From a virus: DNA of 48,424 bases. Where the stretch lies: positions 1-48,424 of IMG/VR virus record IMGVR_UViG_3300050821_001025, one strand, 5' to 3'. The position numbers and the translations under genes are program-made. Positions 16,665 to 35,812 of the stretch are shown here, one piece after another (positions within the stretch are counted from its first letter, which is position 1; every line of letters starts with the position of its first letter). The notes below the pieces were generated by a model. The model saw only the letters and a program-made list of their open reading frames with translations. It searched no databases and was not told the origin of the DNA.

Positions 16665-17633
16665 CTACCCTCCGTCTGTTTGCACGTGGCTGGCAAAGAC
16701 CTTGGCAATGTGATTCGCCAGTGGGAAGGGAATCTTGGCGATCATGGCGGAAGCGGCTTTGCGAGAGTTGGACTTACTGCCGAACCTGCGACCAAGAGTG
16801 TTTTTTTCCAGCGGCTCACCGTGCGGAGTGAAGCCCTTTACGCCGCCCTCGCCGACCTGAAACTCTTCCCTGAATCTCTGCGCTGCTGTGACGTTGAAGC
16901 CGGGAGAGTTGCGGTCAGAGAAGTTTACGCCAGAGACTTTCACTGCCTCGGGCCCACAGTCTCGACTCGTGAAGCGCGCGCCCTTGCCCACGTCCGTGCG
17001 CCGTCCGCTCTCCGACGGCACTTTAACTGCTTCGTCGTTATGCGGCCATCCTGAAATCCTTCCGCCCTTTGCTCCGGGCAGTCGCTTGTTGGAGTTCGCT
17101 TCGGACTTACTGCCTTCCCGATGAGCTGCGACATTGCCGACAGGTCTGTCGTTCCAGATTTGCTCTTTGCAGTCGCCGAACTTTCGCGGCGGGAGTGTAA
17201 TCGGCATCAGCGCCGGCACATCTCCCCACAAGTAATAGCTACCAAAGTGCCACTTGGCTCGACCTACCCACTTCTGCGCTCCCCGAACATTCTCAATTAC
17301 GAGGGGAATGTATCTTCCCGCGGCTTCCGAGGCTTCGCGTTGAATCCGAAAGCAGGCGTCAAAGAGCGTGTTGTCTGGCGGTGGCAAGGCTTTGGCTCGG
17401 CTCCACGGCATCGCCCGGTAGGAGTAGGCTTGGCAGGGCGGGGAAGCTACGATGCAGGTGGCGTCTTTGAACTGCGAACCATGCAATGTGGTCACGTCCT
17501 GCAAAACCAGTTGGCTGGGATAGCCTCCGGTGCCGTAGTCATGGCGTTCGATGTCGAATCCGATCACGCGATAGCCCTCGGCGAGAAATCCTTCTGCCCA
17601 TCCGCCCAAGCCGCAGTAGAGATCAATCGCCAT
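16665..17633 (-). CDS. DNA (cytosine-5) methyltransferase
   Basis: This 322-residue protein has the ordered motifs of C5-cytosine methyltransferases: motif I DLYCGLGGWAEGF (SAM binding), motif IV ASPPCQAYS with the catalytic Cys, motif VI IENVRG, and a motif X-like end (KAASAMIAKIPFPLANHI). The region between about residues 150 and 280 is the variable target-recognition part and looks unusually Gly/Lys/Ser-rich. No restriction enzyme gene is adjacent, so it is probably an orphan enzyme that protects phage DNA from host restriction or alters expression. ATG 17633 gives the usual start MAIDLYCG; a GTG at 17642 is also possible. Confidence 0.9.
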   Translation of the reverse strand: MAIDLYCGLGGWAEGFLAEGYRVIGFDIERHDYGTGGYPSQLVLQDVTTLHGSQFKDATCIVASPPCQAYSYRAMPWSRAKALPPPDNTLFDACFRIQREASEAAGRYIPLVIENVRGAQKWVGRAKWHFGSYYLWGDVPALMPITLPPRKFGDCKEQIWNDRPVGNVAAHREGSKSEANSNKRLPGAKGGRISGWPHNDEAVKVPSESGRRTDVGKGARFTSRDCGPEAVKVSGVNFSDRNSPGFNVTAAQRFREEFQVGEGGVKGFTPHGEPLEKNTLGRRFGSKSNSRKAASAMIAKIPFPLANHIAKVFASHVQTDGG

Positions 17634-17672
17634 CAAAGTCACACCAACCCCTGTGTAGAAAATCAGTCCTGC

Positions 17673-21132: not shown

Positions 21133-21319
21133 TGCGCTTCCTCCGCCTAATCATCCGGCCGTGCTCCCGGCGTTTCTGCGGCGTCCAGATAAGCTTGCCT
21201 CGCTGATGTTGATACTCCCCTCGACAGGCCAGATTTTCGCACAGAATGCGGCCCGGTGGGATGATCGCGCGGCAGATCGAGCAAAGCCCGATGCAAATCA
21301 CGCCAGTGTCTTGACCCAT
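21119..21319 (-). CDS. Small four-cysteine zinc-binding protein
   Basis: This 66-residue protein has CSICRAIIPPGRILCENLAC, two pairs of cysteines in a treble-clef-like spacing, followed by a strongly basic tail (KRREHGRMIRRRKRN). Such a layout fits a small DNA- or RNA-binding protein. It overlaps the upstream ERF gene by 22 bases. Confidence 0.7.
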   Translation of the reverse strand: MGQDTGVICIGLCSICRAIIPPGRILCENLACRGEYQHQRGKLIWTPQKRREHGRMIRRRKRNAVN

Positions 21320-22152
21320 TGCAAAGCCTCATCTAGTTGGAGTGGTGTCATTTTGGTCATGGAATCAATCCCGAAAGTCTCATAGCACCAGCGTTTGACA
21401 TCTTCTTCGGGGACTTCTTTTTCTCCCGCCAAAGCAAAGAGTTTGGAAAAGTTCAAATTCGTCTTGGGCAAGCTATCCTGTACGGCCTTGGTTAGATCGC
21501 CTTTGTCTGGCGTGAGTAGCCATTTGATAGCCGCATCGAACTTGTTTTTGGGCATTTCCTCAATGCTGAAAATGCCGGAGGCTTTGAACTTAGCGGAGAT
21601 TTGGGCCTCAGTGCGGACACCCTTTGACTTCGCGGAATTCCACGCGGAGATTTGCTCTTTGGTGACAAGCCGCTGATCTTCGGTGCGCTGATCAAAGTCG
21701 CGCTCGTACTTTTTGTCGGTTCCAACCGATGCTGCATTTCCATCATCGTCGGTATCGGCTGCGACATTGAGGAAAGCACTTAGAGAGTACCGCCGTGCGT
21801 AGGTAAAGGCACTTCCAGCCCCTTGCGCGTCATACTTGACCATCGGGAGGGCCAATTCGTCTTGGAGCCACTGGCCGCTGCTGTGGGCCAATTTGGTTGT
21901 GATGATCGCGTTGTTTCCATCCACGCGGCAGGATTGCAGGACAATCAGCCCGTTTTCGCACAGGGCCGGGGTAACCGCTTCAATCACGGTTGCCAAGTCC
22001 GCATACTTTGATTTGAAAAACGGATTATTTGAGTCTTTGACTACCTTTTTGAATGACTTACGGGCCAAAGCAAGGGCTTCAACCAATTTGCCAATGTCGG
22101 CAGTGTGAGACAGGCCAGATTTCGGCGTAACTTCTTGAACTTCTTCTGACAT
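21298..22152 (-). CDS. erf: ERF family single-strand annealing protein
   Basis: This 284-residue protein (ATG 22152, ribosome site GGAGGAGG) shows the ERF family core: NNPFFKSKYADLATVIEAV, ALCENGLIVLQSC, and GSAFTYARRYSLSAFLNVA followed by an acidic ADTDDDGN. ERF proteins, named after the P22 protein, form rings that anneal complementary single strands in phage recombination and genome circularisation. The C-terminal half is helical and may bind partners. Circularisation by Erf would fit the terminally redundant or circular map. The frame is open further up but lacks another good start. Confidence 0.9.
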   Translation of the reverse strand: MSEEVQEVTPKSGLSHTADIGKLVEALALARKSFKKVVKDSNNPFFKSKYADLATVIEAVTPALCENGLIVLQSCRVDGNNAIITTKLAHSSGQWLQDELALPMVKYDAQGAGSAFTYARRYSLSAFLNVAADTDDDGNAASVGTDKKYERDFDQRTEDQRLVTKEQISAWNSAKSKGVRTEAQISAKFKASGIFSIEEMPKNKFDAAIKWLLTPDKGDLTKAVQDSLPKTNLNFSKLFALAGEKEVPEEDVKRWCYETFGIDSMTKMTPLQLDEALQWVKTLA

Positions 22153-22307
22153 TTCGCCTCCTCCAAAAGCAGTTTGACAGCGGCATTTCTCCCCAGCACG
22201 GTAAGCTGGCCGTTTACGCGGACGATCTTCAAATCTGGCCCATGTCCACAGCACGGGCAATTCCCCAAACAATGAGCGTCAAAACGGCCATGCCCACACA
22301 GAACCAA
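22041..22307 (-). CDS. Candidate small zinc-finger ORF overlapping ERF start
   Basis: An 88-codon frame from TTG 22307 has CLGNCPCCGHG near its start, then DLKIVRVNGQLTVLGRNAAV and a basic tail. The first part reads like a small zinc protein and fills the 77-base gap between its neighbours, where this densely packed region otherwise has none. But the start codon is poor, and it overlaps the ERF gene by over 100 bases. It could instead be a shorter gene or a shadow. Confidence 0.35.
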   Translation of the reverse strand: MVLCGHGRFDAHCLGNCPCCGHGPDLKIVRVNGQLTVLGRNAAVKLLLEEAKCQKKFKKLRRNLACLTLPTLANWLKPLLWPVSHSKR

Positions 22308-25258: not shown

Positions 25259-25296
25259 TCCACGGTAAGTATTGGCCGGAGGTCGTCAATGGCTGA
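25057..25296 (+). CDS. Small hypothetical protein nested in another frame
   Basis: ATG 25057 lies six bases after GGAGG (25046-25050), itself inside the zinc-ribbon ORF. The 79-residue product is well balanced (EAGRVAEAVSKSVLPESFKP, IQVGEATHRQCEYEDCISYL) and ends overlapping the start of the co-chaperonin gene (ATGGCTGA), which suggests translational coupling. About 200 bases are shared with the preceding frame. No family recognised. Confidence 0.65.
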   Translation: MAVDTKEAGRVAEAVSKSVLPESFKPRDIPEVYPADINWNIVYHRIQVGEATHRQCEYEDCISYLAMIHGKYWPEVVNG

Positions 25297-26092
25297 TCCA
25301 GAGTTAGGGAACCGAGCATCGGAGCAAGGGCAGTTTGAAAAAGGTGTGGACTTTGAGGGGATAAACTCTTCCGGGTTACCTGTGTCGGGGCCAATGGTGG
25401 AAGTGGATGTAAAGTCTAACGGTAACGATCTGGAGCTTTTGCAGAAACGACCTGCGGTTCATAGAAGCATTGAATTGCGACATTCTGAGTCAGATTTGTT
25501 GGCCGCTCAGATGCTCGACGACCCGGAGATGACTTCGTTCTCGATCCCTAACGTTGGAACCATTGAGGCTTCACCGTCTCGTTTGTCGAAGGCTTTGAGC
25601 CGGAACCATAACCGGGAGCAGTTGGTGTGGTTTGGTATTGACTCGCACAATATGAGTGCGGCGATGGGTGATCGAATCATCGTCCGCCGGGACTTGATGG
25701 AGTCGGAGTATGTTTGCCGGGAATGCCGGGGAAAGGGTCATACCGATGAAGTCTGCAAGCTCTGCGACGGAAAGCAGCAAAAGGACGGACAGCTTTGTAA
25801 CCAGTGTATGGTTTTGGGTTTCGAGTCCGAAAAACCTCACCCCTGTGGGTTTGTGAAGTGTCCTAACTGTGTCGGTTCCGGGTGGAGAAACGGAATTATC
25901 ATTCCAGAGGTCGCACAGGGTAAGCCTGTCACTGGGGTCGTCGTTTCTATTGGCCCGGCCACCACCCTCCTAAAGCTCGGAGATCGAGTCTTGCATTCCA
26001 AATTCGCCGGACACACCCTTGAAATGAAATCTGAAACCTACACCTACATGTATGAGAAGGAAGTGATTTCCCTTCTCCGGGACATCGGATGA
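25289..26092 (+). CDS. Chimeric GroES/Cpn10-type co-chaperonin with inserted DnaJ-like zinc domain
   Basis: This 267-residue protein has three parts. Residues 1-125 are an unrecognised N-terminal extension. Residues 127-135 (GDRIIVRRD) match the first strand of Cpn10, and 201-267 match the rest: a mobile-loop-like GIIIPEVAQGK, VVVSIGP, KLGDRVLHSKFAG and YMYEKEVISLL. Between them, residues 141-198 carry four CxxC knuckles (143/146, 156/159, 170/173, 191/194), the first and last as full CxxCxGxG, like the DnaJ zinc domain. Cpn10 proteins cap GroEL rings; T4 gp31 and RB49 CocO replace host GroES for capsid folding. It lies upstream of terminase and head genes, so capsid folding is a likely job. 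Confidence 0.85.
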   Translation: MADPELGNRASEQGQFEKGVDFEGINSSGLPVSGPMVEVDVKSNGNDLELLQKRPAVHRSIELRHSESDLLAAQMLDDPEMTSFSIPNVGTIEASPSRLSKALSRNHNREQLVWFGIDSHNMSAAMGDRIIVRRDLMESEYVCRECRGKGHTDEVCKLCDGKQQKDGQLCNQCMVLGFESEKPHPCGFVKCPNCVGSGWRNGIIIPEVAQGKPVTGVVVSIGPATTLLKLGDRVLHSKFAGHTLEMKSETYTYMYEKEVISLLRDIG

Positions 26093-26406
26093 GCCAAGCC
26101 CACATCAAACGCCGTCTTGCTCAGATGGAGGTCATCGACTTCGTGGAAGGCTCAACCACTGAGCGTGGCGAAAAGGTTTACAAATCCCTGCGAATCACTT
26201 TTAGGCCGTGCTTTGGTTCGCCTTACATCCGCGTCTTCCAGTGTGACAAGGGGATCGGTATCACCGAGGAGTGGATCGAGGACACAATCAAAGGCTGCAT
26301 GGAAGCCCTCGCTAAAGATTATCCGATGGACTCGTTCTCTCTTGTTAGAATCAAATCCAACGACATCGCCTTCAACTACGCGGGTACGAGGGGAGTGGTG
26401 AACTGA
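26089..26406 (+). CDS. Hypothetical protein
   Basis: This 105-residue protein starts in an ATGA overlap with the co-chaperonin. It shows alternating strands and helices (VIDFVEGSTTERGEKVYKSL, RITFRPCFGSPYIRVFQCDK, EEWIEDTIKGCMEALAKDYP). No motif recognised. The tight coupling suggests it is made with the co-chaperonin. Confidence 0.68.
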   Translation: MSQAHIKRRLAQMEVIDFVEGSTTERGEKVYKSLRITFRPCFGSPYIRVFQCDKGIGITEEWIEDTIKGCMEALAKDYPMDSFSLVRIKSNDIAFNYAGTRGVVN

Positions 26407-27035
26407 TGCGAATGACTGAAATGGAATCTCGCCCTGACTGGCGGGACATTGCTCTCGCGGCTCAGTGCCCGACCTGCTTTGCTAACGTCGGCAGCATGTG
26501 TATCGACATGGGCCAGTCCGGAACAAAAACCTCGCGTCTTGATTTTCATGCTTCCAGAAAACAATCGGCCAAGATACTATGGGAACTGAAACAGATTGAG
26601 CGCACCGACGAGCACATTGCCGACGACCTCGACAAACTGGTAGCTGCGCTTCCCCAAAAACTTTCGTTTATAAAAATCAGATTCAAAGGAGCCAGTATGC
26701 CAGAAGGGCCAGTAACTCTCGCACAGGGACAGTCGTCCACGGCGACGATTGACTATTTTGACCAGAACGGGAATTTGATGTCCCCGTCCTCAACCTTCAC
26801 CCCGCCAACCGTTACCTATACCATAGACAACTCGGCCATCGCAACTTCTGTGCCACAACCTGACGGACAGTCAGACCTCGTGACTTGGGTTTCGGCTGGA
26901 ATCGCCAACCTGACAGCTACGGTCGCAGGCCCGAATGGGACTCTGACTGACACCGAAACCGTGACTTGCCAGCCTGCTGTCGTTGCGACTCCGGTGCTGT
27001 CGAGCATTAAGATCAACTTCTCTGCACCGAAGTAA
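26406..27035 (+). CDS. Zinc-finger plus Ig-like protein, with possible internal start
   Basis: This 209-residue protein joins an N-terminal small zinc finger (CPTCFANVGSMC followed by FHASR, a pattern common in phage proteins with CPxC..xxGxxC...H..R) to a C-terminal Big/Ig-like beta domain (PVTLAQGQSSTATIDYFDQN, VTWVSAGIANLTATVAGPNG). A strong internal ribosome site (AAAGGAG) and ATG at 26697 would produce the Ig domain alone (112 residues). Either two products are made from one frame, or two genes have fused. Ig domains on phage particles often bind carbohydrate or decorate capsids. Confidence 0.7.
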   Translation: MRMTEMESRPDWRDIALAAQCPTCFANVGSMCIDMGQSGTKTSRLDFHASRKQSAKILWELKQIERTDEHIADDLDKLVAALPQKLSFIKIRFKGASMPEGPVTLAQGQSSTATIDYFDQNGNLMSPSSTFTPPTVTYTIDNSAIATSVPQPDGQSDLVTWVSAGIANLTATVAGPNGTLTDTETVTCQPAVVATPVLSSIKINFSAPK

Positions 27036-27521: not shown

Positions 27522-27715
27522 TATCAAAGATTGCAGAACTCGTTGATGAAGGAGTTGATGAATATTTGTGTTCCGAATGTGAAGCGCAATTCGATTGCTG
27601 GATTCTAGTGACAAGAGACAGAATCCCCGCTGGGGTTAAGCCGTTAATCGGATATACCGTACCGTCTGCGTTTGTAACCCCTAACCTATGCCCGAATTGC
27701 GGTAAGCCAGCGTGA
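27518..27715 (+). CDS. Small zinc-ribbon protein
   Basis: This 65-residue protein starts at a GTG in a GTGA overlap and ends by overlapping the terminase GTG. It has CSECEAQFDCW and CPNCGKPA, two knuckles of a zinc ribbon separated by 40 residues. Zinc proteins are not usual between the terminase subunits; function unknown. Confidence 0.68.
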   Translation: MISKIAELVDEGVDEYLCSECEAQFDCWILVTRDRIPAGVKPLIGYTVPSAFVTPNLCPNCGKPA

Positions 27716-29592
27716 ACCTCCCGGAAGGTCTTGAACCTGTCCGTGATCTAGTTCAGGAAACCAATCCTAACAAGTGGCAGGAGATCACAATTTATGATTC
27801 TATGTCTTCCTCGGCCAAGAAAGCTGCCATTCGACTTAATGCTCTCGGTTCCCTGTTCTACTTTTCCAAAGTGGTACTTGGACATAACCGCCTATCTCCG
27901 ATGTTGCACGGTTATATGTGTCGGGAATTGGAACGGGACACGCTTCGGTTGGTCATGGAAATTCCCCGCGACCATTTCAAAACTACGGTTGCTTCCGTCT
28001 CCGCCCCGATGTGGTGGGCTTTGGATTTTGGAGCCGAAGACGAAGACCTCATGGGGTCACTCGGCTACTCCGAAGAGTGGCTCCGATGGATGCGCCGCGC
28101 CCACTACTCATCCACAAGAACCCTGATCGCTTCTGAAACCATCGGCAACGCCAGAAAGATTGGCGTGAAGATTGACGGCCACTACACCTCGAATGCAGTT
28201 TTCCGTTTTCTATTCCCAAAGATCATTCCTAAAGACACGGCTCGGTGGAACCAAGACTCCATGACCCACAACCGACTTGATGGGGAATATCACGGAGAGG
28301 GCACTTACGACTTCATCGGAGTCAAGGGAGCGTTGCAGTCCAGACACTACAACCGACAAGTAATTGACGATGCAGTGGGCGAGAAGGCGATCAACTCCGA
28401 CATTGTGATGGAAGGAACGATTGACTGGGTTAAGAAACTTCCTGGAGCTTTTGACTCTGACCCACTGCGACCAGACGCGATGGCTGATCAGCTTTTCATC
28501 GGCAACCGCTGGTCGCACCGCGATCTTGGTAGTTGGCTGCGTAAAAATCTCCCTTCGATGCAGTTCATCACCCACTCGGCTGACGGGGGATGCTGTGATA
28601 TGCACCCTGCCGGAGTTCCTATATTCCCCGAAGAATTTACGATGTCGAAGCTGGCTGAGATTCGTGCAATGGAGGGCGGCTACAATTTTAGTTGCCAGTT
28701 TAGAAATAAACCTGTCGCACCAGAAGCCGTGCGCTTCAAAGAGACGTGGCTGCGTCATTACCACATTGACGCATGGAAGGAACCAAAGAACTCAACCGAA
28801 GTAAAACCAGAAGACCGGATGCGAGTTGCCAACTGGGGGCAGTTGACCGACAAGAACAGGATGGAAGCCCTCGGCATCATCGAAGACAAAGCCGAAGAGA
28901 TGGGAGCTACGCCGGAACGATTGAAGAAGGCGATGGTACACGACGTTAAGGAAGGAGAAGCCATTGGAGATATACGAGCAGGCGAACTCGACAGGTTCGC
29001 TTTCATGGACCCTAACCACTCCGGCGAGTTCGGACGCGCACGTAACGCCATACTCGTCATTGGTGTCTATAACCGTCCACCCGCCCAAAGGCGCATCTAT
29101 CTTCTTGACTGTTGGGCGAAAGCATGCAATCACGAGGAATGGTTGGATGCGGCCCTTAGCACGAAAGCTGGCAAGCGTGGCCTCGTGGTTAAGTGGAGAT
29201 GCCATTCTCTATATATCGAGAGCGAAGTCGCCGGACAGCAAGGCTGGAAGTACGCCATCAAAGAAAGAATGAAGAACATGGGCATTGATGCTTGCTTCTC
29301 GGTTCGCGGCCTAAAAACCGACCGCTCGGAGAATGCCAAGACCAACCGCATCATCGGCATGGAATCCATCTACGAGAACGGGTTTTTCTGGGTTCGCAGG
29401 GTCGGATGCGAAGCGTGGATGGAGGAATATAGCGAATTTCCTAACGGTGCCACGATGGATTTGCTAGACTTGACTGGCTATATCCCTCAGACTTGGGGCG
29501 GCGGCTCACGCGCACAGGCCAGAGACTTTGTTGCCGAAGAACAGAACCGCCGAAAGCAGTTGATGATGAATGTCTCGATTGCGGGTTACTGA
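27712..29592 (+). CDS. terL: Terminase large subunit
   Basis: This 626-residue protein has the ATPase and nuclease layout of packaging motors. The Walker A region is EIPRDHFKTT (residues 83-92), an atypical form with Asp/His in place of the usual glycines. Walker B is VIDDAVGE (217-224), with the motif IGNRWSHRDL near 263. A nuclease-like aspartate block is FMDPNHSGE (from 431). Residues 355-425 form a charged helical insert before the nuclease block. It pumps DNA into the prohead and cuts it. The start is a GTG overlapping the upstream stop. A sequence-based packaging-type call is not possible here. Confidence 0.9.
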   Translation: MNLPEGLEPVRDLVQETNPNKWQEITIYDSMSSSAKKAAIRLNALGSLFYFSKVVLGHNRLSPMLHGYMCRELERDTLRLVMEIPRDHFKTTVASVSAPMWWALDFGAEDEDLMGSLGYSEEWLRWMRRAHYSSTRTLIASETIGNARKIGVKIDGHYTSNAVFRFLFPKIIPKDTARWNQDSMTHNRLDGEYHGEGTYDFIGVKGALQSRHYNRQVIDDAVGEKAINSDIVMEGTIDWVKKLPGAFDSDPLRPDAMADQLFIGNRWSHRDLGSWLRKNLPSMQFITHSADGGCCDMHPAGVPIFPEEFTMSKLAEIRAMEGGYNFSCQFRNKPVAPEAVRFKETWLRHYHIDAWKEPKNSTEVKPEDRMRVANWGQLTDKNRMEALGIIEDKAEEMGATPERLKKAMVHDVKEGEAIGDIRAGELDRFAFMDPNHSGEFGRARNAILVIGVYNRPPAQRRIYLLDCWAKACNHEEWLDAALSTKAGKRGLVVKWRCHSLYIESEVAGQQGWKYAIKERMKNMGIDACFSVRGLKTDRSENAKTNRIIGMESIYENGFFWVRRVGCEAWMEEYSEFPNGATMDLLDLTGYIPQTWGGGSRAQARDFVAEEQNRRKQLMMNVSIAGY

Positions 29593-34852: not shown

Positions 34853-35812
34853 GTGACCATGGTGCGTAACCAATTTTTTCAGGCAATGAGCATCGACGTT
34901 GCACATAATTTCATCGAGTTCCTAGACCTGCGCCAGAAGGCCGTCCAGTTCCGCTCGATCTTCAACGTGCATCCGTCGAAGAAGGCGTATGAGGATGCGG
35001 TGCACTACGCTGGCTTTGGCCCCGCGCAGCCGAAGAACGAAGGCGAAGCGGTTGTCTATGACAACTTAATTCAGGGCGGAACTCGGCGTTACGTTCACCA
35101 GACCTATGGGCTGGGCGTTCGCATGTCCTACGAGTTGATGCAGGACGACCAGACGGGGATGATGGAACAGTCGCCGAAGGGATTGGTGCAGTCGCACATC
35201 TTCGCACAGGAACAGACTGCGGCCAACGTCTTCAATCTTGGATTCTCCTCGACTGGGACGTTGACCGATGACGGAGTTTCACTGTTCAACAACCAGCACC
35301 CGCTTCTGGGAGGAGTGGCGGCAACCAACGTCGCTCCGGGTGTTGGGTCGTTCTCGACCGCTTCCGGGACTTACCCGAACCGTCCGGCAGTTGACGCCGA
35401 TCTTTCTTTCACGGCTTTGCAGTACGCGACCATGACCTTCCAGCGCATGCCGAATGCGCGAGGACTTGTTGTGGCCGTCCGACCGAAGCACTTGCGGATT
35501 CCTCCGGAGTTGGAATTCATCGCTATTGAACTTCTTGGCTCCGCTGGCAAGCCCTACACTTCCGACAACGAAGTGAATGCGCTTCTGGCAACGGGACTGA
35601 GCTACGAGTTGAACTCCTACTTCACGTCTCCGTCAGAATGGTTCCTGACTGGAAACAAGGACGAGCACCGCCTGATGTTCTTCGAGCGGCAGTCAATCTA
35701 CGGCGACTACGACCGCGACTTCGATCAACAGGCATTAAAGTTCTTGGCCATTGCGCGGTATAGTGCAGGTGCCGACACGTGGCTCAACACATTTGGCAGC
35801 CTTGGGCCGTAA
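34853..35812 (+). CDS. Probable major capsid protein
   Basis: This 319-residue protein is probably the major head protein by position and composition. Features are an N-terminal helical region (FFQAMSIDVAHNFIEFLDLR), a central beta-rich core (RRYVHQTYGLGVRMSYELMQ), a helix-strand block (ALQYATMTFQRMPNARGLVV) and a C-terminal ELNSYFTSPSEWFLTG that resembles HK97-fold or Mu gpT-type coat proteins. The start is GTG 34853 or ATG 34859, neither with a clear ribosome site. The gap after the homing endonuclease is only 21 bases, so its original leader may have been displaced. Confidence 0.75.
   Translation: MTMVRNQFFQAMSIDVAHNFIEFLDLRQKAVQFRSIFNVHPSKKAYEDAVHYAGFGPAQPKNEGEAVVYDNLIQGGTRRYVHQTYGLGVRMSYELMQDDQTGMMEQSPKGLVQSHIFAQEQTAANVFNLGFSSTGTLTDDGVSLFNNQHPLLGGVAATNVAPGVGSFSTASGTYPNRPAVDADLSFTALQYATMTFQRMPNARGLVVAVRPKHLRIPPELEFIAIELLGSAGKPYTSDNEVNALLATGLSYELNSYFTSPSEWFLTGNKDEHRLMFFERQSIYGDYDRDFDQQALKFLAIARYSAGADTWLNTFGSLGP

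Follow-up and report, generated by a model that had tools for sequence, protein, structure and literature searches.

The mobile loop of the co-chaperonin GroES is generally seen as a short strap, and its disorder as what tunes the affinity for GroEL. Among phage co-chaperonins, CocO of phage RB49 is grouped with gp31 of T4. In GroES, the residues Ile25-Val26-Leu27 of the mobile loop contact GroEL (PMC5653362). The corresponding loop of gp31 is longer (22 residues versus 16), and gp31 is without roof loops (PMC6318259). The 13 core genes of HTVC023P-type phages include GroES (PMC9599517). With respect to DnaJ-type zinc proteins, isolated examples such as ZnJ2 can hold unfolded proteins (PMC5818400).

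The locus described here, which we term Zn-GroES, encodes a co-chaperonin-like protein in which a predicted zinc domain occupies the mobile loop. It lies in a 48,424-base linear IMG/VR virus record, the whole of which is hereafter called the window, and the reading frame of 267 aa is as the original prediction had given it. The relevant features are the following.

25289-26092, plus strand: Zn-GroES (zinc-domain co-chaperonin) gene, 267 aa, with full-length homologs 43-75% identical
25278-25282, plus strand: ribosome-binding-site-like GGAGG, 6 nt 5' of the ATG, read from the sequence
25289-25663, plus strand: N-terminal extension, residues 1-125, with the motif GNxAxExGQxExGxDFxGIN in subfamily A
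25613-25636, plus strand: REQLVWFG, residues 109-116, strand into the GroES barrel; W114 is invariant in the first seven members
25667-25693, plus strand: first long GroES strand GDRIIVRRD, residues 127-135, from the excision test, alignment and AlphaFold model
25715-25882, plus strand: DnaJ-like predicted zinc domain in the mobile loop, residues 143-198, with CxxC pairs at 143/146, 156/159, 170/173 and 191/194
25892-25906, plus strand: GIIIP, residues 202-206, tip of the mobile loop, aligned with GroES Ile25-Val26-Leu27 (PMC5653362)
25889-26077, plus strand: rest of the GroES barrel, residues 201-263, from Pfam, alignment, AlphaFold and Foldseek
27712-29592, plus strand: terminase large subunit (phrog_38), a conserved neighbour of Zn-GroES
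34853-35812, plus strand: major head protein (phrog_371), 319 aa, the probable client

Elsewhere in the window, the product of 26406-27035 combines a Phage_zn_bind_8 zinc-binding domain with a C-terminal part that is weakly Ig-like or Big_2-similar; its relatives share only the first ~55-80 residues, and the second half looks newly added. The early-gene block on the minus strand includes frames at 21298-22272 and 16665-17642 that match an ERF recombinase and a C-5 cytosine methylase (N-terminal part).

Overall, Zn-GroES shares with GroES/Cpn10 (PF00166) the barrel, the hydrophobic tip of the mobile loop and a profile match that is significant in all members of the family. Specifically, Pfam Cpn10 matches residues 201-261 of the window protein with an E value of 9.4e-12 (45.2 bits versus a cut-off of 21.1), and the profile is matched in 16/16 aligned members at E<=0.1. 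The NCBIfam GroES models and PHROG 3188 (co-chaperonin GroES) agree on this C-terminal part, and the best PDB sequence matches of the window protein are co-chaperonins. For the Cpn10 part the best of these is a member of the Cpn20/tandem co-chaperonins (7ekq), which likewise have a modified co-chaperonin architecture but consist of tandem GroES domains and have no zinc insert. The first strand (residues 127-135) is too short to be found by HMMER alone, and it was tested after removal of the insert in silico against 300 shuffled flanks. The natural flank raised the Cpn10 score in register in 15/15 members and beat at least 296 of the 300 shuffles in 13 of them; for the window protein, 0/300 shuffles scored as high, and the signal was weaker in L173 (9/300 shuffles) and L176 (72/300). 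Consistent with the Pfam and MAFFT results, these data uphold the original prediction of a Cpn10 first strand and remainder that flank an insert.

At the loop tip, the hydrophobic tripeptide is retained in all 16 rows of the family alignment as GIII, GIVI, GIVV and similar forms. The loci L245 (350-1096) and L246 (518-1264) read AGIAIAE in place of GIIIPE and have a longer arm. Zn-GroES differs from GroES/Cpn10 in carrying a zinc domain of ~60 residues in the mobile loop and in a roof hairpin that is ~10 residues shorter by alignment; in one subfamily, the 125-residue N-terminal extension is added to these differences.

In terms of position, MAFFT alignment with 46 ordinary GroES sequences locates the insert between ..VKR-E and KTAGGIIIP, in the N-terminal half of the mobile loop. 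The block is thus within the loop and not, as had first been proposed, before it. In the window protein, the four CxxC pairs described at the outset stand at residues 143, 156, 170 and 191, with full CxxCxGxG motifs at 143 and 191. All eight of their cysteines are conserved among aligned members, while C186 is variable (one partial row is without the first pair because its contig begins later). The insert resembles the DnaJ cysteine-rich domain (PF00684) and the zinc-finger chaperones BSD2/ZnJ2 in having four CxxC pairs of CxxCxGxG character. It departs from DnaJ in being embedded in a GroES loop and in being unaccompanied by a J domain, to which neither the window protein nor the other members gave a Pfam match.

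The likeness to DnaJ is seen most clearly with family profiles. In the window protein alone, DnaJ_CXXCXGXG scores 14.5 bits (E 0.043), under the curated Pfam cut-off of 32.7 bits, and L173 and L252 reach 22.7 and 23.6 bits. Since every individually scored member falls below the cut-off, we call the insert DnaJ-like. Across the family, DnaJ_CXXCXGXG matches 11/16 members (best E 1.4e-5), BSD2_CRD matches 3/16 and Anti-TRAP, another zinc fold, 6/16. Searched against the PDB, the family profile retrieves 1exk, the zinc domain of E. coli DnaJ, with all four motifs covered (E 0.011). In hhalign comparisons with the DnaJ zinc domains of eleven bacterial loci, to which a related multi-CxxC protein was added, the four motifs align in register with probabilities of 92.6-95% and E values of 5e-7 to 3.5e-8. 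The profile check that accompanied the original prediction was therefore positive for Cpn10, and for DnaJ_CXXCXGXG it stayed below the cut-off in the window protein; the resemblance to DnaJ is established on the family and not on the window protein alone. By these comparisons, the insert is a DnaJ-like predicted zinc domain, whether through homology or convergence, and would be expected to bind zinc.

Structure prediction gave a similarly divided answer. From an alignment of 62 sequences, which includes ordinary GroES and on which the barrel model leans, AlphaFold produced a model with a mean pLDDT of 84, in which the barrel and the zinc block exceed 85 over most of their length and the weakest stretch (~residues 204-213) is at the loop tip. 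From the 16 family rows alone, the zinc block was folded and the barrel was not (pLDDT below 50). A Foldseek search of the PDB with the 62-sequence model returned Cpn10 first (1wnr, 8.8e-5; 1p3h, 2.1e-4) and gp31 (1g31) at rank 9, and in BFVD the same model retrieved viral co-chaperonins; Foldseek of the 16-row model was uninformative. For the protein alone, the expected zinc block thus appeared in both runs and the GroES fold only with ordinary GroES in the alignment. Zn-GroES resembles T4 gp31 as a phage-encoded lid of GroES fold, apparently without a GroEL of its own, with a short or absent roof hairpin and a probable capsid client. It differs in that the longer loop of gp31 holds no folded domain, and the two have no close sequence relation.

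This architecture is common to over a dozen distinct sequences of viral origin, found in the window phage and in more than 10 related phages. A single-protein search of viral contigs with the window protein returned no members, which were found through the terminase instead: that search led to related contigs, and six of them have a full-length Zn-GroES homolog in the 43-75% identity range given above. A DNA pattern that combined the last CxxCxGxG with the loop tip gave 22 matches, 21 of them real members; some contigs are near-copies, and 16 rows were kept in the family alignment. In a search with the alignment, the nine best of 77 loci have the insert (one partially) and the other 68 are plain Cpn10. 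Named phages gave plain Cpn10 matches alone (for example Bacteroides DAC16), and none for the relative with two CxxC pairs described below. Among the matches listed for plasmids there was solely ordinary GroES; the best matches examined in cellular genomes were ordinary GroES or were without an insert-bearing ORF; and distant terminase relatives (~42% identity or less) were mostly without Zn-GroES in the sequence examined. A search of the open-access full-text literature, a scope outside which subscription papers and preprints lie, found no GroES with a zinc or DnaJ-type insert, and within that literature the earlier statement that no such fusion was known to be described holds.

Two subfamilies can be told apart. 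Subfamily A bears the N-terminal extension, which belongs to no known family and has no match outside the Zn-GroES fusion. The original prediction had called it unrecognised, and so it is still, although it proves to be conserved in subfamily A and to occur solely with the fusion. Subfamily B (L173/L175, L176/L178 and L188) has a short N-terminus without the extension and a more DnaJ-like zinc block (CEECKGSG...CSDCEGRG...CPECKGKG). Compared with the DnaJ zinc domain itself, motif 3 is without its first Gly in subfamily A, and motif 1 is degenerate in subfamily B. The pN/pS ratio of the gene (0.21-0.28) indicates purifying selection, with the barrel as the most constrained region and the zinc block and N-terminal extension less so.

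Zn-GroES precedes the terminase and portal genes in almost all contigs that show both; in L174/L180 it is on the opposite side and strand of the terminase. The phrog_38 terminase is present in 22/22 records and Cpn60 in 0/22, in records that may be fragments. In L012 (3670-6531) and L178 (5466-8255), the terminase is 930-954 aa long and its homology is split by a LAGLIDADG_3 insert (E 7e-4 and 1.4e-6), which is an intein or a homing-endonuclease insertion.

The window capsid protein has distant relatives among the capsid proteins of Alcaligenes, Roseobacter, Pelagibacter, Caulobacter and Planktothrix phages and of a Methanomicrobiales virus. A search for the host through this protein, in one bacterial phylum, gave distant relatives alone (~37% identity at best). 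All 8 examined phages with a related capsid protein have a Cpn10 gene in the head-gene region, none with a zinc insert. As all of these phages have a co-chaperonin in the head cluster, the major capsid protein is likely, by analogy, to be the client of Zn-GroES. The plain co-chaperonins of HTVC023P, CRP-901, Pag-Yong1, GB2A and relatives are similar to Zn-GroES in lying in a head cluster next to the gene for a homologous major capsid protein. They differ in the absence of the zinc insert, in their separate branch of the tree and in their position between the portal and capsid genes instead of upstream of the terminase (vir526 excepted). In Caulobacter phage GB2A, gp089 (L284, 6230-6661), recorded as a hypothetical protein, is a Cpn10 upstream of the capsid gene (E 2e-10).

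The Cpn10 tree draws on few columns, and its branches are long. It unites the zinc-type proteins in a single group (93/91) that is separate from the plain GroES sequences of the related capsid lineage. A descent of Zn-GroES from the GroES of the capsid lineage itself is unsupported by this tree, with the reservation that its branches are long. Because Zn-GroES stands apart from the plain Cpn10s, co-chaperonins probably became linked to this capsid lineage on more than one occasion. Relatives whose capsid proteins are up to 98% identical have Zn-GroES proteins that share 72-75% identity; the presumed client and its lid evolve at very different rates.

As to anchoring, 16 residues separate the first strand from the first Cys in each of the 15 rows that include both, and, by reading, also in the divergent L245 and L252. 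Between the last CxxC and the tip there are 11 residues, a value partly imposed by the search pattern and different in L245 and L252. The inner CxxC spacings, by comparison, vary from 8 to 25 residues. L252-L255, which are copies of one sequence (L252, 1203-1823), carry just two CxxC pairs in the mobile loop; the first of these corresponds to motif 1 by its distance from the strand, yet MAFFT aligned it to motif 2. This form is possibly an intermediate or a reduced one, and it is compatible with separate zinc sites. Given the fixed strand spacing and this relative, the outer CxxC pair looks like the constant element of the module and the inner arm like the variable one.

These features bear on what the zinc module does. 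A lid with two functions can be envisaged, in which the zinc domain captures unfolded or nascent capsid protein and loads GroEL at docking, bypassing the DnaK/DnaJ hand-over. Such a role would suit the alignment of all four motifs with the DnaJ profile, the BSD2_CRD matches in 3 members and the co-chaperonin in every related-capsid phage examined, and the J-domain-free DnaJ-type zinc protein ZnJ2 does prevent aggregation (PMC5818400). The holding activity of ZnJ2 is independent of its cysteines, however (PMC5818400), and therefore the zinc fold itself need not bind a client; the inner arm is moreover variable, and missing in the two-CxxC relative. We consider client capture unlikely, if the most serious of the alternatives. 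Rather less likely still is that the module acts as a specificity key for an unusual host chaperonin, such as a GroEL whose apical domain is altered or one paralog out of several in the host. Insertion where GroES touches the apical domain of GroEL, a single clade-restricted origin and a module sequence that differs between lineages would all agree with such a key, whereas the tip retains the ordinary hydrophobic GroEL-binding pattern.

Re-use of the GroES barrel beyond chaperonin capping, for example in a protein of the virion or of its assembly that bears a zinc arm and an N-terminal tail, might be read from the unrecognised extension, from the adjoining packaging genes and from a capsid protein that is 98% identical where Zn-GroES is just 72-75% identical. 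We nonetheless judge it improbable, as the hydrophobic GroEL-binding tip is retained in all aligned members and no part is more conserved than the barrel. The weak DnaJ match of the window protein alone could suggest an artefact of chance CxxC pairs, frameshift or assembly chimera. This was ruled out by the occurrence of the same architecture in many independent contigs, and with purifying selection on the gene and a confident model of the zinc block it retains a vanishingly small probability.

Our structural and sequence comparisons are more consistent with Zn-GroES as a gp31-like co-chaperonin that acts on host GroEL, likely in capsid folding, with its loop rigidified or repositioned by the zinc module as a stalk or docking element. 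This docking role is favoured over client capture and over adaptation to host GroEL, and we place the whole proposal, including the co-chaperonin claim, at about an even chance of being correct. The co-chaperonin reading draws on the GroES barrel, the conserved hydrophobic tip, the lack of a GroEL gene in the 22 records and the steady position of the gene in the packaging/head operon. The variable inner arm, the fixed outer anchoring and the two-CxxC relative are what make us lean towards a structural or docking role. Specifically, Zn-GroES would form a heptamer, dock on host GroEL and cap it during infection, most likely for the purpose of folding the capsid protein. The DnaJ-like predicted zinc domain sits between the first strand and the tip of the mobile loop, a region disordered in ordinary GroES. 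There motifs 1 and 4, the outer CxxC pairs if DnaJ is a guide, may clamp both loop ends, and the inner motifs may form a variable arm. Clamping would present the tip on a pre-ordered stalk instead of a floppy loop and could thereby raise the affinity for GroEL or alter the seating of the lid on the apical domains, so that the phage lid competes with host GroES. The shortened roof hairpin may leave an open dome as in gp31. Weighing against this proposal, a capsid protein of 319 aa has no need of a larger cage, and Zn-GroES stands apart from the plain GroES of the capsid lineage, so the two need not share one job.

With natural variants that carry no, two or four CxxC pairs, a long-standing question, the extent to which loop order and height govern lid binding and cage chemistry, becomes testable. 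Zn-GroES is also a natural template for GroES lids engineered to carry cargo domains and, if the dual-function reading were true, would merge two chaperone activities in a single phage protein. The recurrence of co-chaperonins beside these capsid genes points to capsid folding as a bottleneck, one that phages of a single capsid lineage answer with co-chaperonins of their own.
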